DNA from: Baffinella frigidus
Lineage: Eukaryota; Cryptophyceae; Cryptomonadales; Baffinellaceae
Assembly: GCA_026770585.1 (NCBI GenBank)
Contig: MU646915.1
Coordinates: forward strand, 38,323 to 60,796
Direction: 5' to 3'
Length of the DNA: 22,474 bases
In this document: positions 169 to 21,829 of the stretch, one piece after another
How positions within the stretch are numbered: position 1 is the stretch's first letter
Layout of the letters: each line of letters starts with the position of its first letter
Notes under the pieces: generated by a model
What the model was told of the DNA's origin: nothing
The model's input: only the letters and a program-made list of their open reading frames with translations
The model's database searches: none
Program-made: the position numbers and the translations under genes

Positions 169-212
169 CTCGAGGACGTAGCGCAGCGCGACCCCGAGGG
201 TGATGCTCGACA
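169..212 (-). pseudogene. Partial copy of NOT1 exon 8 (tail plus donor)
   Basis: On the minus strand this encodes SSITLGVALRYVLE, nearly the same as the last 14 residues of exon 8 (SSITLGIALRYVLE at 411-454), and is followed by a GT donor (CTCGAG|GTCCTA). Homology stops at about 212, where unrelated sequence replaces the head of the exon and its acceptor. The copy differs by several silent or conservative changes. It lacks an acceptor at the matching place, so I treat it as a non-coding echo; use as an alternative exon is less likely. Confidence 0.8.
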
Positions 213-410
213 GCATGAAACGCGAAACACGAGCCTTCAACCCTAAATCCCAAACCCTAAACCCTAAACCCTACACCGTCTCCGAAGCCGAGAGAGCACG
301 GAACCCGCCGACGCTAAACGCTACACCCTAAACACTACACCCTAAACCCTGAACCCTACACCCTACACCCTAAACCCTCCACCCTAAACCCCAAACCCTA
401 CACCCTAAAC

Positions 411-3400
411 CTCGAGGACGTAGCGCAACGCGATCCCGAGCGTGATGCTCGACACGAGCTGGTGCTGGACCTGGGTTGCGGTTTGGGGTTTAGGGTTGAG
501 GGTTGAGGGTTGAGGGTTGAGGGTTTAGGGTTGAGGGTTGAGGGTTGAGGGTTTAGGGTGACGTTTAGGGTTTAGGGTGAGGTAGGGTGTAGGGTTTAGG
601 GTGAGCTTTAGGGTTTAGGGTAAGGTAGGGTTGAGGGCTTAGGGTAAGGTAGGGTTTAGGGTTTAGGGTGAGGTTTAGTGTTTAGGGTGAGGTAGGGTTG
701 AGGGTTGAGGGTGAGGTCTAGGGTGTAGGGTGCGGTAGGGTGTAAGGGTGAGGTAGGGTGTAGGGTGAGGTTTCACCAGCGAGCCGAAGAGCACCCCCGT
801 GATAAGCAGCTCGCGCTCAGGGTACTTCGGGAAGAAACGGTACTCGTCGAACAGGTTGTGGATCATGCACGAGAAGATTTCCTGGTGTTGGGCTCAAGGT
901 TTAAGGTTTTGGATTTGGGGGTTGGGGTTGGCCCAAAAAGTGTCGCGTCCCAATTGAGTACGGGCGTGTCCAAAATTACTACCACCCACGTCCAATAAAT
1001 ACACCCCCATATTTCGGGAAGAAGCGGTACTCGTCAAACAGATTGTGGATCATGCACGAAAAGATCTCCTGGTGTATGGTTTGGGGTTGAAGGTTTAGGA
1101 TTTGGGGTTTGGGGTTTAGGGTTTGGGGTTTGGGGTGTGGGGTTTAGGGTTTAGATTTTAGGGTTTGGGGTTTAGGGTTTAGGGTTTAGGGTTTGGGGTT
1201 TAGGGTGTAGGGTTTGGGGTTTAGGGTGGAGGGTTTAGGGTGTAGGGTGTAGGGTTCAGGGTTTAGGGTGTAGTGTTTAGGGTGTAGCGTTTAGCATCGG
1301 CGGGTTCCGTGCTCTCTCGGCTTCGGAGACGGTGTAGGGTTTAGGGTTTAGGGTTTGGGGTTTAGGGTTGAAGGTTCAGGGTTTCGGGTGCAGGGTTTCG
1401 GGTGTTGGGTGTCGGGGTTCGGGGTTCCTGCTCGCGCGGCTTCGGCGACGTCTTGAACGCCTTGAGCATCGCAACCACCCCCTCGATCTGCATCTCCGAG
1501 GTGTAGATCCGCTGGAAGTGCGAGTTCGCCTCCTCCTCCACATCCGGCGCGAACTGCTGCTGCGGCGCGCCCCCGCCCGGCCCCGGCCCCGCGCCTGTCG
1601 GCGCCGCCGCCGCGCTCGCCATCTCCATGGGAGCCCCCCCCATGGGCGCGTGCCCCGGGATGCGCGACAGCTCCATGGCCATGTCCCCCGGGAGGGCCAG
1701 GGACTGCACGCCGGGCGGGAGCGGCGGGAGCGGGCGCGGGCCCCCGGGGAGGCGCGCGAGGAGCGCGCGCACCTTGGCCTGCGTCGCGGGCTGCAGGTTC
1801 CCGCCCTCGAGCGACTGCAACAGCGCTTTACCGTACTCGACCGGGATGGTGTTCCCCGCGGCGTCCCCCTCAGCGAGGCGCTCCTGGAGAATGGCGACCG
1901 CCGCGGCTGCGAAGCTCTCGCCGCCGTCGGCCACGGCCTTGCTCGCCCAGTTCGCGAAGGGCAGCGCCTTCTTCTGCCCCGCGTACACCGCGAGGTCCAG
2001 CACCAGCGCCCGGTCCTGCGAGCGCACGCCCGGTTATACAACCTTCTACCCCACCGTGCTTTTAAAAGCGTACCGCGGAACAGCGCGTACAACCGACTAG
2101 TAGCGCATTACAATCGACTAGTACCGGATTTGGGGGCGGGGCGGACCTGCTTGCTCCCCAGCACCTGCAAGAGAACCCCCAGCTCTAGAGCTATGTCGAA
2201 CAGCCGCGGGATCGCGCCCCCCCCTCCTGGTTTCGGGTTTCGGGTTTGGGGGGTGAGGTTTGGGGGGTGGGGTTTGGGGTTTCGTGTTTCGGGTTCCGTG
2301 TTTCGTGTTTCGTGTTTCGTGTTCCGTGTTTCATGCTTCGTGTTCCGTGTTTCATGCTCCGCGTTTCATGCTTCGTGTTTCGCGTTTCATGCTTCGTGTT
2401 TCGTGTGTCATGCTCCGCGTTTCGTGTTCCGTGTTTCATGCTTCGTGTTCCACGCTTCGTGTTCCCTGTGTCATGCTTCGTGTTTCGTGTTTCATGCTCC
2501 GCGTTTCGTGTTCCGTGTTTCATGCTTCGTGTTCCGTGTGTCATGCTTCGCGTTTCATGCTTCGCGTTTCATGCTTCGTGTTTCGTGCTTCGAACCTGGC
2601 GCGCGGTACATGTCGACCATGCCCTGCACCACGAGCGACGAGTTGACCCCCCAGAGCCGCTCCAGCAGCGCCGTATCCTGGGGGTTACGGCTCGAGATGA
2701 ACCGCGCGAGGAGGCTCCCGAGCACCGTGCGGTGCAGCGGGCCCCACGACTCCTTGCAGTGCACGAGCCCGAGCGCGAGCAGCTCGGGGAACGCGGCCTT
2801 GGGCGCCTCGAGCAGGGGGAGCACGTCCGCCATGCTCTCAGCGTCCGACAGCGCCACCAGCGCCTCGATCAGGTCCACGGACCCCCACAGCACCGAGTCG
2901 CGCAGGGAGGGGTCGCGCGGGGTGCGGCGCGCCGAGGTCTGGAAGAGCTCCTGGATGTGCGGCGGGCCCGAGATGCAGATCTTGAGGAGCGCGAGCTGCG
3001 CGGCGGTGTTCTGCCAGCGCCCGAGGAACGCCTCCACCGGGAACGCGTCTGACGCCACGAGGCTGTACGCCGAGAGGAGCAGCTGCACGCCCTCGACGTC
3101 GCGCACGCGGAACGACGGCGCGTCGAGCGCGAGCAGCGCCGCGCGCCAGTTGAGCGTCGGGCACACCGCCCGCACCGCCTGCACGAAGTGCGGAACGTGC
3201 CAGGCGGTCGCGCCCGGCTTCTGCTCCGCGAGCTCGAAGTCGAAGGCGAGGTGCGAGAAGTCCGCGTTGAACCCCGCCGTGATGGGCAGCACGGGCGACG
3301 CCGGGAGCCCCGAGTGCGTGCGCGCCATCATCCCCAGCACCTGCCCCACCCCGGCGTCCGTCACCTCCCCCGCGCACCGCAGGATCCCCACCATGGTCTC

Positions 3401-4774: not shown

Positions 4775-4787
4775 CGTATGCCCCCCT

Positions 4788-5227: not shown

Positions 5228-6709
5228 ATGGCCGGGCAACCAACGACGGGCTTCGCCCGGGGCGGGTGGCAGGGCGATGCGATCTCGGACATGATAGAGG
5301 ACTCGGAGAAGGCGCTCAAGGGGCTGCCTGCGAAGCCTCCGCCGGACGGGCCGGACCCGAAGTCGCTCAAGGATGCGTTCCTCGAGACCTCGCCCCACTT
5401 CCAGGCGATGCTCCAGGCGCTGGAGGTGTTTGACTCCTCCGTGTCGTCGGGCGGCCCGGCGCCAGCCAAGTATGAGCAGGCGCTGTTCTCGGCGCTGCGG
5501 ACGATGCTGCGCGAGTGCCTCTTCACCAAGAACGCTGGGCTGCGCAAGCACCACATCGACCGGGTGCACACCTGGTTTGTCGATAAGCGGATGGCTACCG
5601 ACCAGTCGGCTCACATGGCGGCGGCGCCCACTGGGCCGACGGAGAAGCCGCTGGTCAACACCTGGAACGCGAGCATGGCCATCCGACCGTCGACAGCTGG
5701 GCAGCTCGACGGCAGACGGACGACGGCCGTGGAATCCGCGGCTGCGCGCCCCTACACAGGCGAGCTGGCACGCGCCATGTCTGCGGAACCCCCGATCTCT
5801 CACGGGGCAGATGAAGACGGGGCCTCAGGGGGGGCCAAGCTGCCCCCCAAGGAGCGCATCAAGGAGTACCGGATGCGGAACCTGCGCGTGTCGCAGATGC
5901 GGCGCGCGGGCATCCCCATCCAGTCGATCCGAGCCGCGGAGGACGCCGCCAAGCAGATGCACCAGGCCAACCGGCACGCGGCCGAGGCTGAGCTGGACGG
6001 CGCCGTGGCTGACGAGGCCACGGACCGCGCCATCCGCGAGCTGTGGCTGAGCAAGCGCGAGGCGGAGGAGATGGAGCGGCGGTCGGAACAGGAGGTGCAG
6101 GACGCGATCGCGGTGTGGGCGCACCAGCGCGCGCGCGTGGAGGAGGAAGTCTCGCGGCGGCAGGAGTCGATCCGCTACGCGTCGCAGACGGCGCTGCTCC
6201 ACGCGCGCCCGGCCACGGCCGTGCACCACATGATGCAGGGCGCGATCGCCGAGGAGGGCTCGATGATGCTGGGGATGTCGTCGACGCGGTCGCCGGGGCA
6301 TCGGCCAGGCACGGCGCGGTCAGGCCGCGCCAGCGTCGGGGTGCGGTCGCCCGGGCTCCGCAACGACGTGTCGATCCAGAGCGACGACAGCGACGACGAC
6401 ACGGTCGAGATCGTCGAGGACATGATCAAGGCCGCGGCCCTCCCCGACAAGTTCCACAAGATCCCGCTCCTCAAAGCGCCCTACGACGGGCTCCGCCACG
6501 CCAACACGCCCGCCGGCTGGCCCATCTCCTCGCTCGCGCGCCCGATCTCCGCGCGCCTCGCGGGCCACGACCCTGACTCCTTCTTCGGCCGCGCGTCCAA
6601 CGGCTCCTCCCCGCGGCTTTTCAACCGCACGGCGCCCGCGCGCCCCCAGACGGCCGGGGCGCGCTTCGCCCTCGGGACCACTATCGCTGCCTACGACGAG
6701 ACGCGGTGA
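5228..6709 (+). CDS. 493-residue protein of unknown function with RPx(S/T)A motifs
   Basis: One uninterrupted frame has strong C/G third-position use, consistent over its whole length, which supports a real intronless gene. It starts at ATG 5228 and stops with TGA after ...AAYDETR. The N-terminal 120 residues look helical (conserved-looking stretch HFQAMLQALEVFDS, then ALRTMLRECLFTKNAGLRKH). Residues about 205-320 are charged and probably coiled coil (PPKERIKEYRMRNLR, SKREAEEMERRSEQEV). An acidic patch, DDSDDDTVEIVEDMI, spans about 386-400. Five R-P-x-S/T-A motifs occur at about 153 (RPSTAG), 327 (RPATA), 359 (RPGTAR), 438 (RPISAR) and 472 (RPQTAG). Such motifs are common in algal flagellar and microtubule-associated proteins, so a ciliary role is a guess only. 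I cannot name the family. The end of the gene is part of a repeated unit downstream. Confidence 0.82.
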   Translation: MAGQPTTGFARGGWQGDAISDMIEDSEKALKGLPAKPPPDGPDPKSLKDAFLETSPHFQAMLQALEVFDSSVSSGGPAPAKYEQALFSALRTMLRECLFTKNAGLRKHHIDRVHTWFVDKRMATDQSAHMAAAPTGPTEKPLVNTWNASMAIRPSTAGQLDGRRTTAVESAAARPYTGELARAMSAEPPISHGADEDGASGGAKLPPKERIKEYRMRNLRVSQMRRAGIPIQSIRAAEDAAKQMHQANRHAAEAELDGAVADEATDRAIRELWLSKREAEEMERRSEQEVQDAIAVWAHQRARVEEEVSRRQESIRYASQTALLHARPATAVHHMMQGAIAEEGSMMLGMSSTRSPGHRPGTARSGRASVGVRSPGLRNDVSIQSDDSDDDTVEIVEDMIKAAALPDKFHKIPLLKAPYDGLRHANTPAGWPISSLARPISARLAGHDPDSFFGRASNGSSPRLFNRTAPARPQTAGARFALGTTIAAYDETR

Positions 6710-7074
6710 TCCCCGCACTTTTGAAGTGGACCCCCACACTTTTAAAATAGTCCCCGCACGCCCTCCGCGCGCGCCTCGCTCATGCGCTGACCTTCTCTCT
6801 CTTGCCCGCCAGTGAGTTGGCCCCACTTAGTCTGCTGTCCGCCTGTGATTAGACGCGGTCATCCCCGGGACCCGAAACCCGAAACCCGAAACCCGAAACC
6901 CTAAAAAATATGGGGATCGGGAACCTGTCCCCGCGGTGAGACGCGGTGTTCCCCGCACCCCCCCCTCTGGGGATGGACCCCATGTAGGCACAGCCGGAGT
7001 CACTTGACACACTAGCGAGCGCCCTGCTGCAGACCGATGAGCCGCGGTGCTCCCCGCACCCCCCCTCCCCCTTC

Positions 7075-7955: not shown

Positions 7956-8010
7956 ACAAATATGGGAAGCGGGAACCTGTCCCCAGGTGACAGCGTGTGC
8001 CTCCCCACAG

Positions 8011-8391: not shown

Positions 8392-11300
8392 ATGACGCCG
8401 GCGCAGCAGCAGACGTTCAACGCCACGAACCTGAAGCTCCACGGCTTCTCCTCGCCGCACATCTCGCGCTCGCGCCCGTCGTCGGGATACCACAGCGCGC
8501 AGGTGCTCCCTCTCTCTCGCGCTCCCTCTCTCTCGCGCTCCCTCTCTCTCGCGCTCCCTCTCTCTCGCGCTCCCGCTCTCTCGCGCTCCCTCTCTCTCGC
8601 GCTCCCTCTCTCTCGCGCTCCCTCTGTCTATCTCCTTCTCTCTCCCTCCCTCACGCTCCCTCTCTCGCTCGCTCTCGCGCGCGCTCTCTCTCTCTCTCGC
8701 TCTGTCTCGCTCTCTCGCTCTCTCTCTCTCTCTCTCGGTTCAGGGTACAGCAGCGCGCATGTATATGTATATGTATATGTATATGTAGGTGCCGCGCCAC
8801 TCGCCCCCCCCTTGCGCTTGCCCGCCCTGTCTCTCTCGCAAATCCGTGCGGGGCACAGAGACCAGGGCCGCAGACAGAGCATTGCGTCGTGCGTGCGCAG
8901 CCTCCGCCCCCCCCTCGCGCCCGCCCGCCCGGTCTCTCGCCCAGATCCGTGCGAGGCAAAGAGGCTACTTTGCGAAGCGTCCAGCCCTGAAACTCCTGAA
9001 GCGGATCAAATCGCCTCTACGCTCCAAAAAAGTCTAAAAAGGGGGTACGAAATCAAAAAAGGGGTTGAGGTAGAGGCGATTTGATCCGCTTCAGGTCCAA
9101 AAACAGGAGTCAGGGCTGGACGCTTCCGTAACGAAGGCTAGCCACCGGCCATCCCAAGTGGCTCAAATAGTGCCTTAGAAGGTCTTCGATTTTACCTTGG
9201 ATCGGGGTCGGATCCGACCCCGATCCAAGGTAAATCGAAAATGCCTCAGAGCACTAGTTGAGCCACCTGCAAGGGCTAGTGGAGGGCCGTGGATAGAGCA
9301 GAGCGTCTTGCGTGTGCAGCCTCCGACGCGCACCGGCCTAGGGCCCTATGGTGGTCCCTAGGGGGGGTGCGTTTTCTTGTGAGCGAGGTCCCCCTGTCGG
9401 AGCACGGCCGCCGCTGAGAGGCGTGGTGGACAGGCTAATCTCAGATAATGTTTTTTAAAAAAGGTTTCTCTAAAGTCAACTCCCCCATAAAACCGTCAAC
9501 TTAATATTTTGATAAGTAATAGTGAACAATAAGTTGACGGTTTTGTGGGTGGGTCGACTTTAGAGAAACCCTTTTTAAAATACATTGTCTGAGATGAAGG
9601 CGGAGACCTGCCGTTGCAACCTGACGTTTTGGGCTCTTGGGGGGGGGGTTCAAAAGTCAATTTACACAGGGAAAACGGTATTCAAAAGTCATTGTTTGAT
9701 TGAAAACGGCTCCAAGAACGGGCCAACGGCTCCAAGAACGGGCTAACGGCTCCAAGAACGGGCCCCGGATAACCCTCGAAGGGCCTTGCGTGTCCTGACG
9801 CTGTGGAGTGTGCGGGGCAGACTACGGTACGTAGCAGACAGGCGCAGCTTTGCAACCTCTGGCGTTTTGGAGCGTGCGGTCCAGAAACGTCAGGCGCCGT
9901 TTTGGAGTGTGGGGTCCAAAAACGTCAGGCGCCGTTTTGGAGTGTGCGGTCCAAAACGTCCAGCGACTTTGTTACCGTTGACGTTGTGGAGTGTGGCAGA
10001 CCACGGTGCCACAGTCGCCGGAGATGGACCCGTCAGTGTCAGTCCGCCTCGGAACCTCGTCCGCGGTACCGCACCTCCTCTCACCTTGCGTGCTTCACAG
10101 CTAGATCGATTCCTAGCTCTGCCTGCGTTGTGGAGTGTGCGGGGCAGACTATGGTGCCACAGTCGCCGGAGATGGACCCGTCAGTGTCAGTCCGCCTAGG
10201 GACCTCGTCTGCGGTATCGCACCCCAAACCCTAGACCCTAAACCCTAAACCCTAAACCTTAAACCCTAAACCCTTCCTCCCAACTCGCGTGCTTTACCGC
10301 TACCACACGAGGCTTCCTATGCGAGCAGAATAAATGTCGATTGTGAACCGACGGAGGTGCGCACACCTCCTCTCACCTCCCACTCGAGAATGCTGGAGGA
10401 TCCTATTTACATTGGTTTAAAAAAAGTCTGCGGTACCGCACCTCCTCTCAACTCCTAGCTCTGTCCCACTAAGATTTGGGCTCGCCATTATTTCGCCCCC
10501 CCCCCCGACATTTCACAGGTGAAATTCCATGGGGGGGGGGGGTCAAAATTCACCTGTGGAATTTCGGGGAGGGCGAAATAATGGCCAGCCCACATTTACT
10601 GGGACAGAGCTAGAACTCGCTTGATATACAGCTAGAGCGATTCTCCACTGTTACTTCTTAAGTTAACAGAGGTTCCACTTTTTGCTTTGAGACGTCCCAC
10701 TCTCGACTTTTGTCTCGGTGCACAGCGCTCTTCGGCAGTCGAGAAGCAAGAGGAACGGTAGGACGTGGCCGCGTTTCGACGCTCCGGCGTTGAGACTTCG
10801 CGACTTCATTTGTACCACTGATCTCGAAACGGCGAATTGTAAAAAGGTTCACGGTCTTCACAACCTTTTTGAAGTCTTGAAGTCTTGAACCACTCGAGAA
10901 TGCTGGAGGGTCCTGTTTGTGCCAGGATAAGGTGCTCCAACCTCGTGACTGGCCAATGTATGGCTAGTTACGTGACCAATCAACGAAAGTTATTACACAA
11001 ATGCCCACTTTCAAAAGCACATTGGTTTTAAATAGGCCCCTCTAGCATTCTCGTGTGAAAGTCCCGAAGTCGGGAAGTCAAAATTTTAGTTGAATCGCTC
11101 TATTCAGGTAGAACTTTGCCGCTTCCGACTTGACAAATTGCCGGCTTGGCGATTTTTTTCAAGCCACACAGTGGACTACGGACCTTGCATCAAAAGTCAA
11201 CTTACCCAGTGGGCAGTTAACCTTGAGGATTTTTCGATTCAAATTCGGTCACGTTACCGCGAAATCTAGCGGAACCGAAACCTTCGTAGGTCACGGTGTG

Positions 11301-14300: not shown

Positions 14301-16521
14301 GTTCCACTTTTGCTTTGAGATGTTCCACTCTCGACTTTTGTCTCGGTGCGCAGCGCTCTTCCACACCCACCCACCCTACCCTGTACATGTACTCTGTACA
14401 TGTAGTGCGTAAGACGTCTCTTCGGTGCAGCGTCTGGCGACGAGCAGTTGTTTTTCTTCTCTCGGCTTGAATGCTCCGGGTGTAGGGTTGAGTGTCTAGG
14501 TTCCTCCTCACGAATCTTCCGCTCGATCTCATATGGAAACACTTAAAATTTGTAAACTGGATGCAGTGAACTTTACTACACAGAACGATATTTACCGGAA
14601 ATATTGAAGCACAAGTGTAGTAATTTTGATTGGATTCCAGTTTATAAATTATAAGTGTTTCCGTATGAGATTTGCCGCGAAGCCCAAATGCCCACCGCTG
14701 TGGAGCGAGTTTGGCACGAAATCAAAAGCCAAGGTCGAAAATCGACCGTAGGAACCCCCTATGTCCCTACGGTTTTGATCCGTAGGGCCTATGGATTACG
14801 TTTAGATGGACTATTCTCTTCTCGCTCGGCAGCGGTTTCTGCACACGTGACGTCTCTCCACGCCAGAGGGCTCGAGTAAAACCGACGGCTTATCCACGCC
14901 AGATCTGACGTCGTTGACTTAAGTATTCAGGGGATTTCCCCTGAAAGATGTCAAAAGTGGATGTTTCGAGCCCTCTAGCGTGGCTCTCTCCGCCCGAGGT
15001 GGGTCTGTCCTAGAGTCCTCACATGCAGGCGGCCATTCACAAAACCTGGAACCAAAGGACGCACGCCCCCCCCCCAGAACATTAAAGCCCCCCCCCCCTC
15101 CCCCCCCTGAACGCCTCCTTTCTGATCAGAATCGTTTCTTGAAGTCGAGGTACCCCTCCACACAGCGGACTTCGAAGGGAGTGTGAATAACCCCCTAAGC
15201 GATAGGACCTAGGACCTATGACCTAGGACCCTACGATAGGCAACCCGTAGGGGCTTGGGGGGGTTCCTAAGGATCAGGTAACGGAAACTCGGGCTCTCAG
15301 CGCCCGAAATCCCTTGGTAGCCCTCTGTGTGGGTGGTAAGCTTGTGTTGCCCTCTCGGGGCAGGTGGGCCGCATCAAGCGAGCGTTCGCGCGGGCGCGGA
15401 TCCCCACCCCCCATATGTCCCTACGGGTTGCCTACTGTAGGGCCATAGGTCTTATCGATCAGGGGTTATTCAGAGTCTTAGGTCTTATCGCTTAGGGGTG
15501 ATTCAAAATCCCTTGGGAGCCCTCTGTGTGGGTAGTAAGCGTGTGTTGCCCTCTCGGGGCAGGTGGACCGGATCAAGCGAGCGTTCGCGCGGGCGCGGAT
15601 CCCGTGCGCCCTCAACATCATCGAGCGCGCGCTGGTACACCCTGCACTCCAAACCCCCAACTCCAAACCCCTAACTCCAAACCCCTAACTCCAAACCCCC
15701 AACTCCAAACCCTCAACATCATCGAGCGCGCTGGTGCACCCTACACTCCAAACCCTAAACAAACCCTAAACCCTAAACCCCCAACTCCAAACCCCTGACT
15801 CCAAACCCCCAACTCCAAACCCTGAACTCTAAACCCTAAACCCTAAACCCTAAACCCCAAACCCCAAACCCCAAACTCCAAACCTGAACCCTGACCCGTA
15901 AACCGCGGCACGGATGCACTCCCTGCCACGCCACCACGCAAGAGTGTAGGGCTGACCTGGGAAAACAAGCCAGTTCACACGAAATTTGTAACAACGTTCC
16001 GAAATTTCGATTTTTCTGTGGGAAGAATGTCCACTTCGACTATTTCTTAAGAAATAGTCGAATTCTACTATTTCTCCTGTGGGTCACTCTGCCCTACACT
16101 CTTGCGTGGCAGGCCACAAGTGGGAACTCGCCCATGGTTGATTCAGAGATTCTCACGCTGGTTGACGGCAGGTGTTGCCCGAGGACCGACCATACGCGCG
16201 ATGCGTCGAGACCCTGCACCTGCTCCCCGACTTTCATCCTTGCCAGGACCCGGCCTTCACAACCGAAAGGAAGCATGGCTTTTCTGCAGAACAACCGGTG
16301 TCCGCCTAAGGTGGGAGTTGAAAGAACCTGAAGGACCTGAAGGACACTCCGTGGTTTTTTCGCAGGTGGTGCCCGAGGACCGATCGTACGCGCGATGCGT
16401 CGAGACGCTCCCGCGCGCGGGCGTGCACCTCCTCCCCGACTTCATCCTCGCCGAGAAGAAGAGCGCCAAGGGGAAAGGCGCCAAGGGCGCCAAGGGGAAG
16501 AAGGGGAAGAAGAAGAAGTGA
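8392..16521 (+). CDS. Proposed three-exon gene for a 112-residue lysine-tailed protein
   Basis: The model joins exons 8392-8502, 15563-15634 and 16366-16521. All borders are GT-AG and all junctions phase 0, giving 112 residues plus TGA. Exon 1 encodes MTPAQQQTFNATNLKLHGFS and ends SSGYHSAQ. Exon 2 encodes VDRIKRAFARARIP, then CALNIIERAL. Exon 3 starts VVPEDRSYARCVETLPRAG, continues HLLPDFILAEKK, and ends in a Lys/Gly/Ala tail (KGKGAKGAKGKKGKKKK). Exons 2 and 3 are supported by GC-rich codon use, clean acceptors, and the partial copies around them that preserve the coding sense. Linking exon 1 to them rests on phase and on the absence of any other GC-rich coding segment in the 7060-bp first intron, so it is the weakest step; exon 1 could belong to another gene, or further exons may be missed. 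No family recognised. It may be a small basic structural protein, for example a ciliary one, but nothing proves that. Confidence 0.6.
8505..8786. repeat. CTCTCTCG-type microsatellite and TATATG run in intron 1
   Basis: Right after the donor of exon 1, CTCTCTCGCGCTCC units repeat about ten times (8505-8625), then degrade to CTCTCTCG/CTCTCT until 8738. At 8759-8786 there is a GTATAT run of about five units. Open frames across this region are low-complexity artefacts. Confidence 0.92.
8743..8760 (+). pseudogene. Possible echo of the tail of exon 1
   Basis: GGTACAGCAGCGCGCATG|GT-like sequence resembles the last 18 bases of exon 1 plus its donor (GATACCACAGCGCGCAG|GT at 8486). It lies at the far end of the microsatellite. 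The match is short and imperfect, so this is the weakest of the exon echoes. Confidence 0.4.
8975..9125. repeat. Inverted-repeat element, AAGCGTCCAGCCCTGA termini
   Basis: The left arm runs AAGCGTCCAGCCCTGA.ACTCCTG, then AAGCGGATCAAATCGCCTCTAC. The right arm is its complement, ending CAGGGCTGGACGCTT at 9125. Arms are about 50 bp and nearly perfect; the loop of about 45 bp is A-rich. No open frame. Confidence 0.9.
9138..9279. repeat. Inverted-repeat element with a 44-bp perfect central palindrome
   Basis: The element is bounded by CTAG at both ends. Outer arms hold CCAAGTGGCTCAAATAGTG and its near complement. The centre, 9191-9234, is a perfect palindrome (TTTACCTTGGATCGGGGTCG and its complement around GGATCC). 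A close relative occupies about 22124-22256. Confidence 0.92.
9330..9395. repeat. Single arm related to the CCTAGGACCCTAC family
   Basis: GGCCTAGGGCCCTATGGTGG, TCCCTAGGGGGGGTGCGTTT and TCTTGTGAGCGAGGT match about 16822-16876 in the element at 16761-16960 and resemble 3675-3720. Only one arm is seen here, so it looks like a fragment. Confidence 0.7.
9438..9596. repeat. Inverted-repeat element, ATCTCAGA termini
   Basis: Arms of about 65 bp (ATCTCAGATAATG.TTTTTTA, AAAAAGGTTTCTCTAAAGTC, AACCGTCAACTTA) pair with their complement ending GTCTGAGAT. The AT-rich loop is at about 9510-9525. No coding capacity. Confidence 0.9.
9633..9790. repeat. GGGCTCTTGGGGG element (copy 2) with internal triplication
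   Basis: It starts GGGCTCTTGGGGGG and carries the GGAAAACGGTATTCAAAAGTCA core. It then has three tandem copies of the 20-bp unit ACGGCTCCAAGAACGGGC, and ends CCCTCGAAGGGCC. Copy 1 (8011-8143) has the 20-bp unit once; copy 3 (about 17596-17740) has two diverged versions. Confidence 0.75.
9795..10215. repeat. Direct repeats: three ~35-bp units and an 85-bp pair
   Basis: Units with CGTTTTGGAGTGTGCGGTCC and AAACGTCAGGCGC repeat about three times at 9861-9960. An 85-bp block (GTTGTGGAGTGTG, GGTGCCACAGTCGCCGGAGA, TGGACCCGTCAGTGTCAGTC) occurs at 9983-10068 and again at 10127-10211, period 144, nearly identical. Open frames of 137 and 143 codons cross it but look repeat-derived. Confidence 0.85.
10224..10272. 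repeat. Short CCCTAAA array
   Basis: About seven CCCTAAA units (one CCTTAAA) follow directly after the second 85-bp repeat. Together with the arrays at 7868 and 17098 it shows telomere-like sequence scattered through non-coding DNA. Confidence 0.9.
10455..10613. repeat. Inverted-repeat element, CTAGCTCTGTCCCACT termini (copy 2)
   Basis: The left end CTAGCTCTGTCCCACTAAGA and the right end ...ACTGGGACAGAGCTAG are complementary. Arms of about 70 bp include GCCATTATTTCGCCC and CACAGGTGAA.TTCCA, with C-run and G-run interruptions. Same terminal sequence as 7075-7223. Confidence 0.9.
10641..10731. repeat. 90-bp direct repeat shared with 14270-14359
   Basis: From TTCTCCACTGTTACTTCTTA to GTGC.CAGCGCTCTTC, the block matches 14270-14359 with only a few differences. 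In both places it lies next to inverted-repeat elements. It holds no open frame of note. The following 10732-10880 resembles, in inverse sense, the interior of the element at 21881-22068 (GGTACAAATGAAGTC, AAGTCTCGAAG). Confidence 0.88.
10891..11057. repeat. Inverted-repeat element, CACTCGAGAATGCTGGAGG termini
   Basis: The left end CACTCGAGAATGCTGGAGG pairs with CCTCTAGCATTCTCGTGTG at the right. Inner pairs include AATGTATGG.. and ACATTGG. The left terminus also occurs alone at 10382-10400, which suggests a second, broken copy there. Confidence 0.75.
11096..11576. repeat. Long inverted-repeat element (~480 bp), GCTCTATTC.GGTAG termini
   Basis: The outer ends (GCTCTATTCAGGTAGAACTT at the left, AATCCTACCGGGATAACTC at the right) pair imperfectly. 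Inner arms 11341-11371 (TAGAGCGCTTGCGGGCAAAC, TTGGCCGATTT) and 11476-11508 pair closely. Termini resemble those of 21881-22068 (AGCTATTCCGGTAGGACTTG). A 146-codon frame crosses it, but the palindromic layout makes a real gene unlikely. Confidence 0.78.
11856..12004. repeat. ACTACAC-family inverted-repeat element 1
   Basis: Ends are AATCTCATAGGGAAACGGCT and the imperfect complement (TTTCCTTTGAAATC). Inner arms hold GAAATTTATTACACATAATG against CATTCGTGTAGTAATTTTCA. Terminus and inner box are shared with elements at 14526-14673 and 13004-13111. Confidence 0.88.
12118..12263. repeat. ACTACAC-family inverted-repeat element 2 (long near-perfect arms)
   Basis: Arms of about 60 bp are almost perfect: TTTATC.GGGAAAACCTATTT, TTCTTTCATTTGATGGCAAC, GAAAATTACTACACA, and complement ending at about 12262. 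The loop is about 30 bp. The inner box CAACGAAAATTACTACACA is the family mark, but the outer arms differ from element 1. Confidence 0.92.
12321..12900. repeat. Large inverted repeat, arms ~12321-12425 and ~12795-12900
   Basis: Arms of about 100 bp pair over GGGCCCGTTTCTCAAGGCTC, CAGACTTTTGTATCGCTCAA, CTCA.GGCTCAAGGGCCTCGT and GTATCGAGAGTAATAA. The loop of about 370 bp holds direct repeats (GGCGTGTTCCCTGGAAGCGG at 12429 and a near copy at 12657) and no convincing gene. The unit CTACAGTTGTAACCTCTCGAG with GTATGGCCGCGC occurs both inside (12740-12796) and just outside (12908-12950). Confidence 0.85.
13004..13111. repeat. ACTACAC-family element 3, left end lost
   Basis: The inner arms GAAATTTACTACACAATGAG and TTCGTGCAGTAAATTTCATTG pair. 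The right end AGTTTCCCTATGAGATT is the complement of the family terminus, but no matching left end is present. GATTCTC.CCCGTAT.GGC lies on both sides (12970 and 13108), a possible long target-site duplication or tandem copy. Confidence 0.78.
13386..13488. repeat. Inverted-repeat element, ACCCTAGTGGCTAT termini
   Basis: ACCCTAGTGGCTATACGTCT and its near complement AGACATATAGCCACTAGGG pair, with a loop of about 60 bp that holds a weaker inner pairing (TGAATTGACTG / CAGTGAATTCA). No coding capacity. Flanking sequence 13120-13380 and 13489-13890 contains short CCTAGG palindromes but no gene. Confidence 0.8.
13899..14052. repeat. Tandem pair of ~80-bp units
   Basis: TCTGTCACAGC.G..TCGCTGGCTGGCGG, GTCACTGACAC and TGTTTATC.CCCAA occur at about 13899-13965 and again at 13981-14052. 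Units differ by small indels. They lie immediately left of the element at 14055. Confidence 0.82.
14055..14235. repeat. Inverted-repeat element with 20-bp perfect central hairpin
   Basis: The outer arms CCACACGAGGCTATCCATGC, GAACAGA and complement end at 14235. The centre, 14113-14154, is a perfect hairpin: two 20-base arms (TGATCACGTTTCCGTACGGA and its complement) around a TG spacer. A lone, diverged left terminus (CCACACGAGGCTTCCTATGC, GAGCAGAATAAA) lies at about 10304-10334. Confidence 0.92.
14270..14359. repeat. 90-bp direct repeat shared with 10641-10731
   Basis: This is the second copy of the block beginning TTCTCCACTGTTACTTCTTA. After it (14360-14520) comes a stretch with GTACATGTACTCTGTACATG and no recognisable gene. 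The 279-codon minus-strand frame across 13703-14542 is built from these repeats and is not a convincing gene. Confidence 0.88.
14526..14673. repeat. ACTACAC-family inverted-repeat element 4 (intact)
   Basis: The ends ATCTCATATGGAAACACTTA and complement CTTATAAG.GTTTCCGTATGAGAT pair. The next arm segments (AAATTTGTAAACTGGAT / TTCCAGTTTATAAATT) and the inner box TTTACTACACAGAA / AAGTGTAGTAATTTTG follow. This is the best-preserved member with the ATCTCAT terminus. Confidence 0.92.
14858..14983. repeat. Inverted-repeat element, CCACGCCAGAGGGCTCGA termini
   Basis: The left end CCACGCCAGAGGGCTCGA pairs with TCGAGCCCTCTAGCGTGG. Inner sequence has AGGGGATTTCCCCT. Between 14674 and 14857 only short GTAGG palindromes (CCGTAGG...CCTACGG) are seen. 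Confidence 0.82.
15067..15112. repeat. C-run cluster
   Basis: Three runs of 7-11 C are separated by AGAACATTAAAG and T. Run length is likely to be unreliable in any read-based assembly. No function assigned. Confidence 0.8.
15184..15472. repeat. Inverted-repeat element enclosing a copy of an exon head
   Basis: The left arm 15184-15253 (TGAATAACCCCCTAAGCGAT, AGGACCTA..., GATAGGCAACCCGTAGGGG) pairs with 15409-15472 (CCCTACGGGTTGCCTAC.GTAGGG, CATAGGTCTTATCGATCAGG, GGTTATTCA). Between them lies a 100-bp copy of the acceptor region and head of exon 2 of the 112-residue gene. An extra half terminus (GTCTTATCGCTTAGGGGTGATTCA) lies at about 15482-15505, directly before the genuine acceptor region. 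The arms share CCTAGGACCCTAC with the 3611, 9330 and 16761 elements. Confidence 0.85.
15304..15403 (+). pseudogene. Partial copy of exon 2 (head plus acceptor) of the 112-residue gene
   Basis: It matches 15506-15605 closely. The shared part includes intron tail AAATCCCTTGG.AGCCCTCTGT, CTCTCGGGGCAG acceptor, and VGRIKRAFARARIP against VDRIKRAFARARIP. It ends where the right arm of the inverted repeat begins. It has no exon tail or donor, so it cannot replace exon 2. Confidence 0.88.
15641..15895. repeat. CTCCAAACCCC/CCCTAAA-type array in intron 2 with an exon-tail echo
   Basis: AACTCCAAACCCCC units grade into CCCTAAACCC and CCCCAAA. At 15712-15752 the array is interrupted by a copy of the tail of exon 2 and its donor (CTCAACATCATCGAGCGCGC, TG|GTGCACCC), two bases shorter than the real tail at 15611-15634. 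This is a telomere-like intron, as in NOT1. Confidence 0.85.
15934..16109. repeat. Inverted-repeat element with a 28-bp perfect palindrome
   Basis: The termini CCACGCAAGAGTGTAGGGC and complement end at 16109. At 16035-16062 lies a perfect 28-bp palindrome (TTCGACTATTTCTT and complement). It lies in intron 2 of the 112-residue gene, between the telomere-like array and the exon 3 echo. Confidence 0.9.
16172..16240 (+). pseudogene. Partial copy of exon 3 (head plus acceptor) of the 112-residue gene
   Basis: After GGCAG it reads VLPEDRPYARCVETL, then HLLPDF. This matches exon 3 (VVPEDRSYARCVETLPRAGVHLLPDF), with a loss of 12-13 bases over LPRAGV. The Lys-rich tail and stop are missing. It lies 194 bp upstream of the real exon 3. 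Confidence 0.85.
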
Positions 16522-16735: not shown

Positions 16736-16760
16736 AAAAGTTCTGCGCGCGCACTGTGGG

Positions 16761-16960: not shown

Positions 16961-17058
16961 TCCTGTCTTTATCATCCACAGCCCCACTCCTGCTTGAGTA
17001 GCAAGAACTACCCAGAGATGTTCAATCACAAGGATTTGCAGCTCTGTTTCACTCAAAC

Positions 17059-17085
17059 TGACCGACTATTGAGAATAGTCGGTCA
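17059..17085. repeat. Small perfect hairpin
   Basis: TGACCGACTATT, loop GAG, then AATAGTCGGTCA. Twelve-base arms are exact. It has no T-run or other terminator feature and lies right before the telomere-like array. ACTATT.../AATAGT also forms the core of the palindrome at 16035-16062. Confidence 0.8.
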
Positions 17086-17097
17086 ACCCAACATGTG

Positions 17098-17452
17098 TTT
17101 AGGGTTTAGAATTTAGGGTTCAGGGTTCAGGGTTCAGGGTTCAGGGTTCAGGGTTCAGGGTTCAAGGTTCAGGGTTCAGGGTTCAGGGTTCAGGGTTCAG
17201 GGTTCAGGGTTTATGGTTTCGGGTTTCGGGTTTAGGGTTTCGGGTTTACGGTTTACGGTTTACGGTTTACGGTTTACGGTTTAGGGTTTAGAGTTGAGGG
17301 TTGAGGGTCTAGGGTTTATTATTTAGGGTTTCGAGTTGAAGTTTTAGGGTTTATTGTTTAATGTTTAGTGTTTAGTGTATAGGGTTTAGGGTTTAGGGTT
17401 TAGGGTTTAGGGTTTAGGGTTTAGGGTTTAGGGTTTAGGGTTAAGTGTTTAC
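17098..17452. repeat. Intergenic telomere-like array
   Basis: Homogenised blocks follow one another: about 15 units of GGGTTCA, then TTTCGGG, about six TTTACGG, mixed variants, then about nine perfect TTTAGGG near 17385-17445. The block structure shows local spread of variants. No sub-telomeric gene is visible around it. Confidence 0.93.
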
Positions 17453-17595
17453 GGATGAGGGATACAGCCTCTGCACTGGAGAGCTACATGCGATCCGAAA
17501 GCAAAAATGTTTTTTTTCTGCAGATCCTTTCTACGGAAGGTCGTGTCGTTGGGCCAAGTTGGGAGAAATTAAAACCTAAAGGACCTAAAGGACCT

Positions 17596-17740
17596 AAAGG
17601 ACCTTGGTATGTCAATTTTCAAGGGAAAACGGTATTAAAAAGTGAACCTTCAGAGGAAAAAGGTTCCAAGAACGACCCAATGGCTCCAAGAACGACCCTG
17701 GAATACCCCCTCGACGAAGGGCCCTGCGTGGAATTCCCTT
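17596..17740. repeat. GGGCTCTTGG-family element (copy 3, diverged)
   Basis: It shares GTCAATTTTCAAGGGAAAACGGTATT, two units of GGCTCCAAGAACGACCC type and CTGGAATACCCCCTCGACGAAGGGCCCTGCGTGG with copy 1 at 8011-8143. The upstream 17560-17596 has three AAACCTAAAGGACCT units, similar to 16325-16350 before exon 3 of the 112-residue gene. Confidence 0.7.
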
Positions 17741-17830
17741 GAGGCTTGGTCCCAAGAACTTTGGGGCTTGATCACTTGACCTGTTGACCTCTTGGGCTGG
17801 ATGTGGGTGGGTTTGCAGAGGCCTTGTAAA

Positions 17831-17904
17831 AGACTCGACGGACTGGCAGCACCTTGAGCATCTACTTTCAACAATGTGCCGTTGGACACGTGTCCGTCGA
17901 GTCC
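17831..17904. repeat. Short inverted repeat
   Basis: AGACTCGACGGAC at 17831 pairs with GTCCGTCGAGTCCT ending at 17904, loop about 45 bp. Flanks 17741-17830 and 17905-18079 show no gene; the second is A-rich. Confidence 0.65.
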
Positions 17905-18079
17905 TCTATTTTTTTTAAAAAACGCACAAAAAAAACAATGCAAGACTTGTCAACCACTCAAAAGTCAAATGTTCAAGGGGACAAGAAATGCAAAAGTCGG
18001 CAGAAGTCAGTTTTAATAAAAGAATTACACGAATTACAAAAGGACACAGGAACGGAAAGGCTAGTTCGTTGATAGAGCG

Positions 18080-18266
18080 GGTCTCTGATGACTTGACACT
18101 TTTCTGGGGTCGAAAAACTTCTAAACTTTCAAACTCTCTTAGTCAACTCGTATGAAATTTGCCACAGCGTCAATTTCGCTGTGGTAAATTTCAGGTGAGT
18201 CGACTAAAAGAGTTTGGAAGTTTGGAAGTTTTTCGACCCCAGAAAAGTGTCAAGTAATGAGAGACC
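18080..18266. repeat. Inverted-repeat element, GGTCTCTGATGACTTG termini
   Basis: Long arms of about 85 bp (GGTCTCT.ATGACTTGACACT, TTTCTGGGGTCGAAAAACTT, CAAACTCT.TTAGTC.ACTC, GAAATTTGCCACAGCG) pair with their complement, with very small loop TCAATT. Nearly the whole element is one hairpin. Confidence 0.93.
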
Positions 18267-18404
18267 AGCTGTACAAGGAGTGGGCTACCCTCCTGCCCTT
18301 GACCTTCCCAGGCCCTGCGGGGGCGCCCTGAGAGGAAAGCCTGCCGGCTGTTTTAGCCACGGCAATTTTTAGCAAAAAACATCAGTTTTTCTCAGGAGTT
18401 GGGT

Positions 18405-19347
18405 GTTTCACTAAACAAGGTACCTGTAAACTTTCTCCCGAGTCCCTCTCAGTGAATCCTGGGTCTTTCTGACTAAATCCTGAGTCTTTATGGGCGAATC
18501 CTGAGTCTTGCTGAGTTTTTCTGGGCCAATCCTGAGTTTTTCTGACTTAATCCTAACTTTTTCTGGGCAAATCCTGAATCTTTCTGGGTCAATCCTGGGT
18601 CTTTCTGACCGAGTCTTTCTGAGTTTTTCTTGAGTTTTTCTTTTTGAATCCTGAGTCTTTTTGACTGAATCCTGAGGCTTTCTGGCTGAATCCTGAGTCT
18701 TGCTGTGTGAATCCTGAGTCTTTCTGACTGAATCCTGAGTCTTTCTGACTAAATCCTGAGTCTTTCTGACTAGATCCTCAGGCTTTCTGGCTAAATCCTG
18801 AGTCTTGCTATGTGAATCCTGAGTCTTTCTGACCGAATCCTGAGTCTTTCTTGTGAATCCCGAGTCTTTCTTGGTGAATCCTGAGTCTTTCTGACTGAAT
18901 CCTGTGTCATCCTGCCTGAATCCTGAGTCTTTCCGAACAGATCCTGAGAATTCCTGACTAAATCCTATGACATCCTGACTGAATCCTGAGTCGTCTTGAC
19001 CAAATCCTGGTCTGAAAGTCTTAGGGTAGAGAAGGTCTCAGGATTCAGTAAGGATGTCTCCGGATTTAGTCAGGAGGTCCGACGGGTACCAGCGAAGGCC
19101 ACAAATCATTTTTTTATGCACCAGCGAAGGTTGAACTGGCAGTATGGGCCAGCATGTTTGTTTAAAAAACTGAAAACAGACCCACATCCCCACCAGTTTC
19201 AGTTTTGAACAAAATACTGGTATTCATGAGACTGGCTGATCGGCCACGCTAAGTCATGCACAAGGTCTTAGGATAGAGTCTGAAAGTCTCAGGATATAGT
19301 GACAAGGTTTCTGGATAGAGTTTTCAGGTACCTCGTGTAATAAAACA
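18405..19347. repeat. ~20-bp satellite arranged as a giant inverted repeat
   Basis: From 18440 to about 19005, units of the form AATCCTGAGTCTTTCTGACT repeat about 28 times with spread-out variants. From about 19013 to 19075, and again at 19262-19330, the complementary unit (AGTC..AGGATT.AGT.AGA) appears. The outer ends pair too: GTGTTTCACTAAACAAGGTACCTG (18405) against CAGGTACCTCGTGTAATAAAACAC (to 19347). The centre (19085-19255) holds a short GTTTGTTTAAAAAACTGAAA / TTTCAGTTTTGAACAAA hairpin and two ACCAGCGAAGG words. No gene. Confidence 0.88.
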
Positions 19348-20317
19348 CAGTCCCCCCAAACTGGTGTAAATCACAACAAACTGGTGTAAATTTCGCTCAA
19401 AAGTGATCTTCTCAGTAAGCAACTGCAGTTTTTTTATGATGCCGACTTTAAAAACTGACTGACTGCATTGGCTTTCACTCGTCGCACACACTATTTTCAG
19501 GTTTCCATCTCCGAATGTTTTTCAACTTTTTGGAAGCTCGCTGGTTACGACATGCCTGCCACTTGTACTGAAACTTGGGGTGATTGTGAGCATGCGACCG
19601 ACCACTGTTCAACCAGAGAGAGAGATTGATAATTTATTGCCAAACAACCAGCGTCAGCGCCGCACATGCTACGCATTGTGCCACTTACTGTACCCCGTGT
19701 CGGCCGCTCATACAAGCATTTTCCGGATGGATTCTAACTCCACCTCCTACATTGTTCAACCAAACAATACAATTTGGCGCTTCAAGAAGTCCATTAGGCC
19801 CTTTAGGTTTTAATTTCGCCCAACATATGCCAACGACACGCCCTTCCGTAGAAAGGACAGCAAAGAAAGCATTTTTGCTTTCGGATCGCGTTTAGCTCTC
19901 CATTGCAGAATGCTCGCAGATCTTAAAGATCAAAACTGCGATTTGTCGTAGCACCCCCAAAACTCGTACCCCTGCTGCATTCTTTGGTGATCTGGGCTCG
20001 TGCGAATCCCCTCTTTGCCTTTCCTCGCACGCGCGTGGTCGTCGGAGCAGCAGAACATGTTCAGAATTGGGTCAGTCAACCACCCACGAACAAGAGTGTT
20101 GAGCGTGTCAACGCTGTCTGATGGCACACGTTCCTGGTATCGTTTTCGAGAGGACATCCACACGGATCCAACGCAGTCTTGAAACCCCGAATCCGGGGTG
20201 GCACTTGTGAAAAAATGCACTTGCGAACAGGTCTCAAAGTCACTTAAAAAATCCTTCTCGTAGTGGAATTCCCCGAAGGCTCATAACCTGCTTGCTTTCC
20301 CCCACTTTTTTTGAAGG
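19348..20317. other. Stretch without a recognised gene
   Basis: It has two AAACTGGTGTAAAT units at 19359-19395. The word TGTTCAACCA recurs at 19607 and 19753, with AATTTATT or AATTTGG following. A minus-strand frame of 96 codons (19930-20220; ...TLVRGWLTDPILNMFCCSDD...) has no family I know. It might be a remnant of a mobile element, but nothing supports that directly. The last 80 bp before SPTLC1 are likely 5' flank or UTR. Confidence 0.5.
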
Positions 20318-20425
20318 GTGTTTGACCCAAGGCGGCGCGCGAGGGAAGGGGACGTGAGGGCTCTCAGTGCAGGGGGATCGCAGCGAGGAGAGAGAGTCCA
20401 GAGTCTGCGGGAGGGGCCAGTCGGA

Positions 20426-21829
20426 ATGTCGAGTGGGGCGGAGCTGGGATTCCTCCTGGATCCGACCGTGGAGCAGCTCTTCAGGGCCCTGGCCAGCCGC
20501 GTGGATGTGCATTTCTTCATCGAGGCGGTCTTCGTGATCGTGATCTGCTACCTGCTCTTCCAGAAGGCGTACACGCCAAACAAGTCGCGCGATAAGCTGT
20601 CGGCGCACGAAATTGATGAGCTCTGCCATGACTGGCAGCCCGAGCCGCTGGTGAGTGAGGAGATGTTGGCAGGCGTGGTGCATCGACCAGAGCGCGTCGT
20701 CACCGGACAGTGCGGCCGCTTGATCACCGTCGCCGGCGTCGAGGCCATCAACTTTGGCTCGTTTGACTTCCTGAACATGACGGCCGAGGAGTCGATCAAG
20801 GACGACTGCGAGAAGACCATCCGCAAGTATGGCGTCGGCTCCTGCGGCCCGCGTGGATTCTACGGCACCATCGACGTCCATCTCGACCTCGAGCGCGACC
20901 TCGCTGGTCTCCCCCCCCCGGACCCCCACCAATGTTTCCCCTGCCCGCAGCTGCCCCTCCAAACCTGCCTGCCTGGTCGCTGGAACGCAGCAACGCCAGG
21001 TGCGGTTTGGCGCCCAGCAGATACAGGACGGGCATGTATCGGGAGGCGTCAGGCAGCCGGCTGGCATCTGAGCGCGGATTTCTGGCAGGCTTCATGGGAA
21101 CTGAAGCCGGGATCATCTACTCATACGACGCCTGCACGGCAAGCTCGGTATACTGCTGCCTTTGCTCTCGTTTGCTTCACCCCCTCGAAAACGCTCCAAA
21201 ACATCGGGGGCTGAACTGAAATTTGAGCTCCGAGCGCCTTGCCTTGTGACCCGTCGCTCATTTTCCTGAAAGACACTCCTCTTGCGAAAAACGCCAGACA
21301 CTCTACACTCCTGCCCTTCCCTCTACACACTCCCGTCCTCGCAGCAAACAAAACAGAGCCTGCAAACCGCGCTGAAAGGCTTGACTAACAATCGGCGGGG
21401 CACGCTCGCGTTGGCTGCTAGAGTCCCCGACGAGACGGCTCGTCCCTCCTCCATCTCCACAAAAGTATTAATTAATTGCTTTCGGCGCAACGAAATTTAC
21501 TACACAAATGCTTTACTACTACTTTTATGAGCAAATCGTGTAGTAATCTTCGTTGCCCAAAAGCAAATATTTAATACTTGTATGGGGATTAACCTGTCCA
21601 CCTGGCGTGCAGCGGTCATTTTTGGTTTGAAAATTTAGTGAACCTCGTTTCTCCCCTTGCACAGGTGATCCCAGCATTCCTGAAGCGGTGGTAGAGTCCC
21701 CCCATCTCGTCCCACCTGTCCACCTGGCGTACAGCGGCCGTGTTTGACCAGTTAGTCAAGCTCGTTTCGCCCCGTGCACAGGTGATCCCAGCATTCCTGA
21801 AGCGCGGAGACATTGTCGTGCGCGACGAG
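20426..21829 (+). CDS. SPTLC1: Serine palmitoyltransferase subunit 1 (LCB1/SPTLC1), first 196 residues
   Basis: LCB1 forms, with LCB2, the ER-membrane enzyme that condenses serine with palmitoyl-CoA, the first step of sphingolipid synthesis. LCB1 itself lacks the PLP lysine; it supports LCB2. The model joins exons 20426-20906, 21089-21147 and 21782-21829, all GT-AG and in frame. A membrane segment lies at about residues 29-46 (FFIEAVFVIVICYLLFQ), followed by AHEIDELCHDWQPEPL (about 60-75). The family signature KYGVGSCGPRGFYGT spans about 134-148; its Cys is the counterpart of human Cys133. Exon 2 gives FMGTEAGIIYSYDACTASS and exon 3 VIPAFLKRGDIVVRDE, both colinear with the family. Start 20426 fits the plant N-terminal length; an in-frame ATG at 20318 would add 36 low-complexity residues. 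Later exons, about 290 residues, lie beyond the window. Confidence 0.93.
21466..21585. repeat. ACTACAC-family inverted-repeat element 5, in SPTLC1 intron 2
   Basis: The ends AAGTATTAATTAATTGCTTT and complement AAAGCAAATATTTAATACTT pair. Inner box CAACGAAATTTACTACACAAATG pairs with GATCGTGTAGTAATCTTCGTTG. The inner box matches the 12118 and 13004 members; the outer arms are its own. Confidence 0.9.
21593..21688 (+). pseudogene. Partial copy of SPTLC1 exon 3 (head plus acceptor)
   Basis: The segment from CCTGTCCACCTGGCGT to the exon head matches 21715-21806 in tandem (period about 120). After the TTGCACAG acceptor it reads VIPAFLKR and then breaks into TGG and a TAG stop, whereas the true exon continues GDIVVRDE before its donor. 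Splicing to this copy would end the protein early. Confidence 0.9.

Follow-up and report, generated by a model that had tools for sequence, protein, structure and literature searches.

The window analysed here is a stretch of 22,474 nucleotides from the cryptophyte Baffinella frigidus (positions 38,323-60,796 of contig MU646915.1; the genome comprises 382 Mb in 1364 contigs), and our subject is the partial copies of exons that lie beside the exons themselves, both in this window and in other genes of the same genome. The genes of the window are eukaryotic. On the minus strand, exons 1-8 of NOT1 (CNOT1) join in frame to give a stop-free product of 797 amino acids, which matches the Pfam families CNOT1_TTP_bind (2e-44) and CNOT1_HEAT (8.8e-20); the former match pairs residues 697-797 with profile positions 25-125, over equal lengths, and bridges the exon 6/7 and exon 7/8 joins. 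The right-hand gene encodes serine palmitoyltransferase 1 (SPTLC1): its spliced product of 196 amino acids aligns with 6m4n_A over residues 17-195 (3.3e-40). A third gene specifies a 493-residue protein with at least 21 relatives besides itself among the candidates scored, for which no Pfam family was found at E 0.01 and no PDB relative at E 1, and a fourth specifies a product of 112 residues, for which neither a Pfam family nor a PDB relative was found.

An earlier note on this DNA had described eight cases in these four genes in which an exon is accompanied by a copy of its head, with the acceptor, on the upstream side, or of its tail, with the donor or stop, on the downstream side. This observation is mostly right, and it extends outside the window. 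Six of the eight cases reach our threshold (exon-part scores 44 to 88; Table 1), the weakest being the tail of exon 2 in the 112-residue gene, which lies exactly upon it. The other two do not: the exon-part score of the supposed tail copy of exon 1 in the 112-residue gene (23) is inside the range of shuffled sequence, and the repeat at the 3' end of the 493-residue gene is genuine, albeit coding only in its first 12 bases (GAGACGCGGTGA, stop included), so that it is a repeat of the 3' flank and fails as an exon copy (best score 32, in a different part of the coding sequence). All six exon-part mismatches of the NOT1 exon 7 head copy fall on third codon positions, and the head copy of SPTLC1 exon 3, read in the frame of the exon, gives VIPAFLKRW and then TAG.

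Table 1. Exons of the window and the copies beside them (window positions)
Feature	Position	Strand	Evidence
NOT1 exon 8 (60 nt)	411..470	-	in-frame splice, Pfam alignment
Tail copy of NOT1 exon 8, GT donor included	167..212	-	43/46 identical to 409-454; score 73
NOT1 exon 7	777..881	-	in-frame splice, CNOT1_TTP_bind match
Head copy of NOT1 exon 7, including 48 nt of intron and AG	1010..1116	-	92/107 identical to 823-929; exon-part score 88
3'-end repeat of the 493-residue gene	6698..6957	+	more copies at 7528-7745 and 7725-8009
Claimed tail copy of exon 1, 112-residue gene (rejected)	8705..8762	+	42/60 overall
Exon 2, 112-residue gene	15563..15634	+	hand-set exon
Head copy of exon 2, 112-residue gene, with 57 nt of intron and AG	15307..15404	+	93/98 against 15506-15603; score 72
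Tail copy of exon 2, 112-residue gene, with GT	15710..15755	+	44/48 against 15609-15656; exon-part score 44
Exon 3, 112-residue gene, stop included	16366..16521	+	hand-set exon
Head copy of exon 3, 112-residue gene, with AG	16168..16244	+	71/92 against 16362-16452; score 75
SPTLC1 exon 3 (48 nt)	21782..21829	+	serine palmitoyltransferase 1 chain alignment
Head copy of SPTLC1 exon 3, with AG	21592..21687	+	81/96 against 21714-21804; exon part 23/23, score 46

Together with the window, readable loci elsewhere in the genome supplied 84 exon cores, i.e. 168 sides, 165 of which have at least 200 readable flank bases; each core was aligned to up to 2 kb on either side, with other exons masked, and a score of at least 44 was counted as positive. 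Direct copies are present on 35 of the 168 sides and in 15 of 32 genes or gene pieces, whereas an inverted copy was seen on a single side. The best match is the exon head on all 18 positive upstream sides and the exon tail on all 17 positive downstream sides; the rule of heads upstream and tails downstream is therefore without exception among best matches (35/35), although one secondary copy is ambiguous: it lies downstream of L024 exon b and, with bases 15-105 of that exon's 123, is no clear tail. The earlier note had asked for a comparison with shuffled sequence: for the first 51 cores, window included, 27 of 102 real sides carry a direct copy and one an inverted copy, as against none of 4040 dinucleotide-shuffled flanks (maximum score 42; 99% quantile 28). 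When exons were compared with the flanks of other loci, the threshold was reached in 6 of 9152 between-family and 58 of 3952 within-family comparisons, the latter being expected because related exons or their copies sit unmasked in those flanks; in a smaller flank-swap set it was reached in 4 of 2040, all with kinesin queries. The later 33 cores yielded eight copies on 66 sides, none inverted, with the polarity predicted in advance in 8/8. Nor does the result hang on loci in which copies had been seen or could be foreseen: the earlier note had named few or no copies in other genes as the outcome that would speak against it, and yet without the window, L024, L027 and D45, 21 of 128 sides are positive. 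Local direct duplication across exon borders is thus supported for many genes of this genome.

The cores comprise 28 with ends set by hand, from reading and homology and with known homologs in mind, and 56 that are Pfam match cores; the ends of kinesin and dynein exons are those of the profile matches, and the joins verified by Pfam or PDB alignment are those of NOT1 exons 6-8, SPTLC1 exons 1-3 and myosin exons b-e. The window, which served as the discovery set, contributes 15 cores and six positive sides. Loci L009 and L014 came from 14 places picked blind to content; the gene in L014, with its CS domain and tetratricopeptide repeats, we take to be DNAAF4-like. L024 and L027 were picked partly since the kinesin search showed overlapping matches there, and the two kinesin matches read as copies were excluded as exons. 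At one dynein place, C13 (D45), an overlapping match with a stop was visible beforehand; the 11 other dynein matches were all used as exons. From the first 20 places, the readable sequence was L006, L018, L021, parts of L009, L010 and L014, 895 bases of L007 and 245 of L005; L006, L010 and L018 hold many local direct repeats among which exons are not surely definable, and they stand outside the counts, as do 14 listed chaperonin profile matches, in which nearby matches overlap in the profile by a few positions at most. The later sample, made up of further kinesin and dynein loci, consists of nine contigs named in the prediction, to which short windows and dynein loci were added afterwards under the same test. 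One composite core, K31a, spans two exons, hence 84 cores as against 85 exons in the gene-by-gene tabulation.

Copies are concentrated in particular genes: each of the three L028 exons tested has both kinds, and none was found in L022, L025 and L026. They also form arrays, with four head copies upstream of L028 exon b (from exon base 1 or 3 to 64) and five upstream of L024 exon b. None of the 35 best matches is a copy of a whole exon, as would be expected of duplicated alternative exons with both splice sites, the longest covering 133 bases of a 156-nt core. We considered whether whole-exon copies are purged, and rejected this: the number expected from the first 27 pairs is 16 if the spacing is the unit of duplication, but about one if the unit is the aligned stretch, so that the count of zero proves nothing. 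Among these 27 pairs, the aligned stretch measures 30-163 nt (leaving out the upstream row of L028 exon b, in which two neighbouring array copies are aligned rather than exon and copy), and the spacing is 101-738 nt, with a median of 229 and mostly within 100-340. The alignment continues past the exon core in 20 of the 27, by 2 to 88 nt; in six it does not, and one row is misassigned. The duplicated segment hence comprises part of the intron, the splice site and part of the exon, as in the potato gene discussed below. Pair identities range from 73 to 100%, which suggests that the activity is ongoing.

The earlier note held that the splice site is always kept. By eye, among the first 15 head and 12 tail copies (the kinesin borders being our own reading), 14 heads retain AG and 10 tails retain GT; retention is therefore the rule, but exceptions exist. 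Among the introns themselves, that between NOT1 exons 6 and 7 starts with GA (GAGCAG/GAACCC ... CACCAG/GAAATC; window positions 1428-2015 and 777-881, minus strand), and two myosin introns as set (L009, 3006-3322) start with GC and GA. After AG, the downstream exon starts with G in 16 of 19.

Duplication is not peculiar to exons. In noncoding windows of 110 nt from the same and three other loci, a copy at the same score was found in direct orientation on 394 of 1858 sides and in inverted orientation on 219; because the windows are not matched to the exons in length or masking, the two rates can be compared only roughly. The inverted noncoding copies are expected, because many hairpin elements are present. 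As noncoding DNA is duplicated about as often, exons are not targeted, and the claim of a process that spans exon-intron borders holds in so far as borders are straddled, albeit without specificity for exons. What distinguishes the exons is the near absence of inverted copies and the straddling of their borders by direct ones. The one-sided polarity follows necessarily from any tandem-type duplication across a border, since the intact exon then continues from the adjoining copy, and it speaks against a dispersed, inverted or random pasting of fragments.

The differences between exon and copy have a coding character. Mismatches at codon positions 1, 2 and 3 number 31/658, 36/658 and 117/648; the third-position excess recurs in every identity class, and the overall ratio is 3.55 (bootstrap over pairs 2.58-5.16). 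Neither base composition nor CpG sites give rise to it, as the base-adjusted ratio is still 3.37 and non-CpG sites differ at 0.146 versus 0.045; gene conversion between exon and copy may be set aside on the argument that it would wipe out silent differences too. Differences from copy to copy (33 copies, at 13 exon sides with several) are likewise concentrated, at 0.066, 0.077 and 0.243 per position. At these multi-copy sides, the sites at which all copies unite against the exon number 3, 1 and 13 by codon position, and changes confined to a single copy (20, 20 and 33) are spread more evenly. It therefore seems that exons and many of their copies diverged while both were coding, or else that the copies were constrained, since neutral decay of a simple duplication does not give such an excess.

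The model implicit in the earlier note, a simple tandem duplication within one chromosome lineage with the copy a neutral piece of intron from birth, has to be judged against these figures. It accounts for the location, direction and partial extent of the copies and for the multi-copy arrays; the more evenly spread single-copy changes agree with it; and the youngest pairs (L028 exon a, 62/62 and 38/38; SPTLC1 exon 3, 23/23; DNAAF4-like exon 2, 28/28), fit it fully. However, a constrained exon with a copy neutral from birth gives a modelled ratio of 1.3-1.8, and 3.55 was reached in none of 5000 simulations; the note's premise that intact exons stay selected would, with drift of the copy from birth, allow at most about a twofold third-position density. 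Moreover, in the eight pairs with an alignable intron side, positions 1 and 2 together differ at 4/289 and position 3 at 22/140, as against 46/374 in the intron, and no three-base rhythm was found in the noncoding duplicates. The ratio and the copy-to-copy rates thus oppose a neutral pseudo-exon, the more even spread of single-copy changes being nearer to it, and we consider this model unlikely as a general account.

We favour, as probably correct, the view that small tandem-type duplications, frequent in this genome, lengthen introns when they happen to straddle an exon border. Such duplications would arise at many places in the genome when staggered breaks are repaired with fill-in, or through template switching or unequal exchange, and noncoding DNA is affected at roughly the same rate as exons; this repair route is our inference. 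Where an acceptor is straddled, the first copy, consisting of the intron tail and the exon head, would become intron, and the second would stay joined to the rest of the exon; where a donor is straddled, it is the downstream copy that would become intron. The copies, on the evidence of the DNA, are accordingly presumed to be intronic, and the outcome would be a longer intron with a leftover duplicate splice site and an unchanged protein. As to the codon pattern, many duplications may have joined versions of the exon that were already diverged and still coding (alleles, homeologs or paralogs), through unequal exchange or through repair off another allele or homeolog, in which case much of the difference between exon and copy would be older than the join; identical pairs, such as that of L028 exon a, would reflect a join within one version. 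The earlier proposal that duplication builds introns stands in the sense that existing introns are lengthened, but creation of introns is unsupported, the identity between donor and acceptor surroundings being no higher than in re-paired controls (19 introns).

Several observations weigh against this explanation. The third-codon ratio contradicts its simplest form, in which one duplication occurs and the copy then drifts neutrally, and the appeal to diverged templates was added after the codon pattern had been seen. The intervening stretch is itself duplicated to at least 70%, as in a plain tandem, in eight of the 35 pairs, and to 30-70% in ten; in the remaining 17, less than 30% of the intervening DNA is explained, so plain tandem duplication is incomplete as a description, as exemplified by DNAAF4-like exon 2 (100% identical, with 312 nt between the copies) and NOT1 exon 8 (93%, 198 nt). 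These 17 pairs might reflect break repair with captured filler, in which unrelated DNA comes to lie between short direct repeats, but later insertions or decay would look alike. Finally, the rate in the later sample (8/66, 12%) lies below the predicted minimum of 15% of sides, and four of its eight copies sit in a single gene (L031).

A different origin for the flanking halves would be turnover of the exon by re-insertion: a broken exon would receive an intact, diverged version of itself together with both intron edges, supplied by the homologous chromosome or another allele and joined in at the inner break, so that the old halves were left flanking and the intact exon took over. The upstream head and downstream tail would then share a short target duplication. 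The coding-type divergence counts as a pointer in this direction, and at ten exons a head copy is indeed accompanied by a tail copy, with split points 13.4 nt apart on average and correlated identities to the exon (r 0.75, p 0.003). At L028 exon b, the most favourable of five head copies shares the state of the tail copy, and not that of the exon, at 3/3 differing sites in a 23-nt overlap, and at L024 exon b one head-tail pair agrees against the exon at its one differing site. However, no such agreement is seen for the other heads of L028 exon b or for a second tail of L024 exon b, three further exons with head-tail overlaps show no such site, and the co-occurrence of heads and tails is explained by gene (p 0.46). 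For the closeness of split points, permutation gives p 0.02 when distance is measured in bases (0.04 for the first nine exons) but 0.32 when it is measured as relative position (0.40 for those nine), such that coupling to a single split point is suggestive at best, and we rate re-insertion as distinctly improbable.

Could the copies instead be an artefact of assembly, in which diverged haplotypes were interleaved at conserved exons? The differences between exon and copy are indeed of the kind expected between alleles or paralogs, with silent and intron differences. Yet the five head copies of L024 exon b show 2 to 8 mutual differences over 41-49 shared bases, which is more versions than two haplotypes give; within L028, third-position divergence runs from 0/33 in exon a to 7/42 and 10/37 in exons b and c; a search with NOT1 exon DNA led to one locus only, in the searchable part of the genome; and the contig that holds the window measures 280 kb, suggesting long reads able to span each structure. 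We give this explanation a small chance. Smaller still is the chance that the copies are, or once were, translated alternative half-exons kept by selection on the protein: the third-codon excess, both from exon to copy and among copies, is what such half-exons would show, but frame-shifting indels occur in five of the 35 pairs, the SPTLC1 head copy meets its in-frame stop, heads have an acceptor without a copied donor and tails the reverse, and in the printed overlaps no splice motif joining head to tail was seen by eye.

Repeats of other kinds are abundant in these loci. Long arrays resembling TTTAGGG/CCCTAAA occupy introns and intergenic DNA (window positions 1-775, 1081-1400, 15640-15900 and 17097-17451) and amount to about 13.5% of the noncoding DNA in the loci used for the measurement of pair spacing. 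Positions 7075-22303 of the window contain palindromic self-matches similar to hairpins or miniature inverted-repeat transposable elements (MITEs), at least 15 in number and each some 60-220 nt long; by eye, several have a core similar to ACGAAATTTACTACACAAATGC, and the one at 21453-21589 looks like an element within a DNAAF4-like intron (L014, 1562-1697). An inverted repeat of 204 nt, 93% complementary, connects two different NOT1 introns (208-411 and 1197-1400). The head copy of exon 2 of the 112-residue gene sits between the arms of another (15158-15531), and a left arm of similar kind is found ahead of an exon-like copy in L018 (about 530-640; by eye), where a gene-like stretch at 180-2730 includes several exon-like pieces, each present two to four times, with telomere-like arrays between them (by eye). 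A dispersed repeat of about 100 nt, with the motif CCGAAAG...CTGCAGA...GTGTCCGCC...AAGGACCT (established mainly by eye), recurs at 16245-16361, 17470-17593 and 19789-19909 of the window and at 2892-3160 of L018.

Some of these repeats do separate exons from their copies: a telomere-like stretch lies between the two at NOT1 exon 8, L028 exons a and b and L046 exon c, and the dispersed repeat does so at exon 3 of the 112-residue gene. As a class, however, the stretches between exon and copy do not exceed 179 random noncoding windows in telomere-like DNA (0.165 versus 0.168), and their content of sequence shared with other fetched loci is not clearly raised (0.265 versus 0.223); neither class is therefore the driver. 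Telomerase or telomeric insertion was likewise rejected as the cause, there being no enrichment and the arrays beside copies occurring in both orientations. Insertion elements (introners, MITEs or telomeric repeats at breaks) whose target-site duplications would be very long, and to which those occasional intervening repeats might be ascribed, are on the same figures and orientations the least credible of the explanations, and the comparison with the fetched loci does not show the recurrence of one element across genes that an introner would give.

In rice, natural insertions are reportedly patch-mediated tandem duplications, to go by the title of a study by Vaughn and Bennetzen from 2014. The closest precedent to the tandem-type duplication favoured here is a duplication across an intron-exon border in the RNA-dependent RNA polymerase (RdRp) of potato (PMC4974935). 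There, as here, the upstream copy comprises the intron end, the acceptor and the exon head, and the downstream copy retains the exon; the potato case, however, is one gene, the upstream exon part is partly still exon, and a new intron was shown, whereas here many genes are affected, donors as well as acceptors are copied, an exon may have several copies, and nothing indicates that the copies are exons. In Daphnia, 55 of 90 neointrons contain internal direct repeats, attributed to repeated staggered double-strand breaks (PMC4202315); these resemble the present copies as local direct repeats, interpreted as traces of break repair that alter intron length, but they lie inside new introns, whereas ours extend into coding sequence and take in donors as well as acceptors. 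A suitable biochemistry exists in the fill-in of 3' overhangs by CST and Pol alpha-primase, which gives small tandem duplications (PMC8355091), similarly independent of sequence and similarly a product of break repair, albeit at induced breaks in mouse and human cells.

Other reports concern the repeats at intron ends. Rogers and Bendich (2025) describe direct repeats of 4-30 bp, placed on splice sites or close to them, which they interpret as the scars of insertions (PMC11782384); theirs link the two ends of one intron, whereas here an exon part is linked to a copy 100-340 nt away. No repeat of their type between donor and acceptor was found on average in 19 introns: identity of the surroundings is 0.265 at -30 to -5 (null 0.262, p 0.45) and 0.274 at +3 to +30 (null 0.261, p 0.20); taken singly, positions +2, +3 and +6 lie above the null (0.53, 0.53 and 0.47 versus 0.42, 0.26 and 0.25). 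By this test, intron birth of the AGGT type is not what is seen. The introners of Amoebophrya have direct repeats of 3-5 nt over their borders and inverted repeats (PMC7789003); non-GT donors and repeat-rich introns occur here too, but the copies here amount to tens of exon bases. Among the open-licence papers listed by our searches, we saw none that, to judge by its title or the beginning of its abstract, reports half-exon copies next to exons on a genome-wide scale. The phenomenon works like a border-crossing tandem duplication, and differs from the known cases in its scale and in its codon-position anomaly.

Border-crossing duplication, previously represented by one potato gene, is thus found here on about a fifth of the exon sides tested (35/168). 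In such a genome, the lengthening of introns and the birth of duplicate splice sites become countable events, datable by the divergence of the copies, and the coding-type divergence between exon and copy becomes a measurable anomaly, which would signify either a common exchange between very diverged versions or half-exons under constraint within introns. There is also a warning for gene prediction, in that half-exons with real splice sites may be called exons in genomes of this kind.

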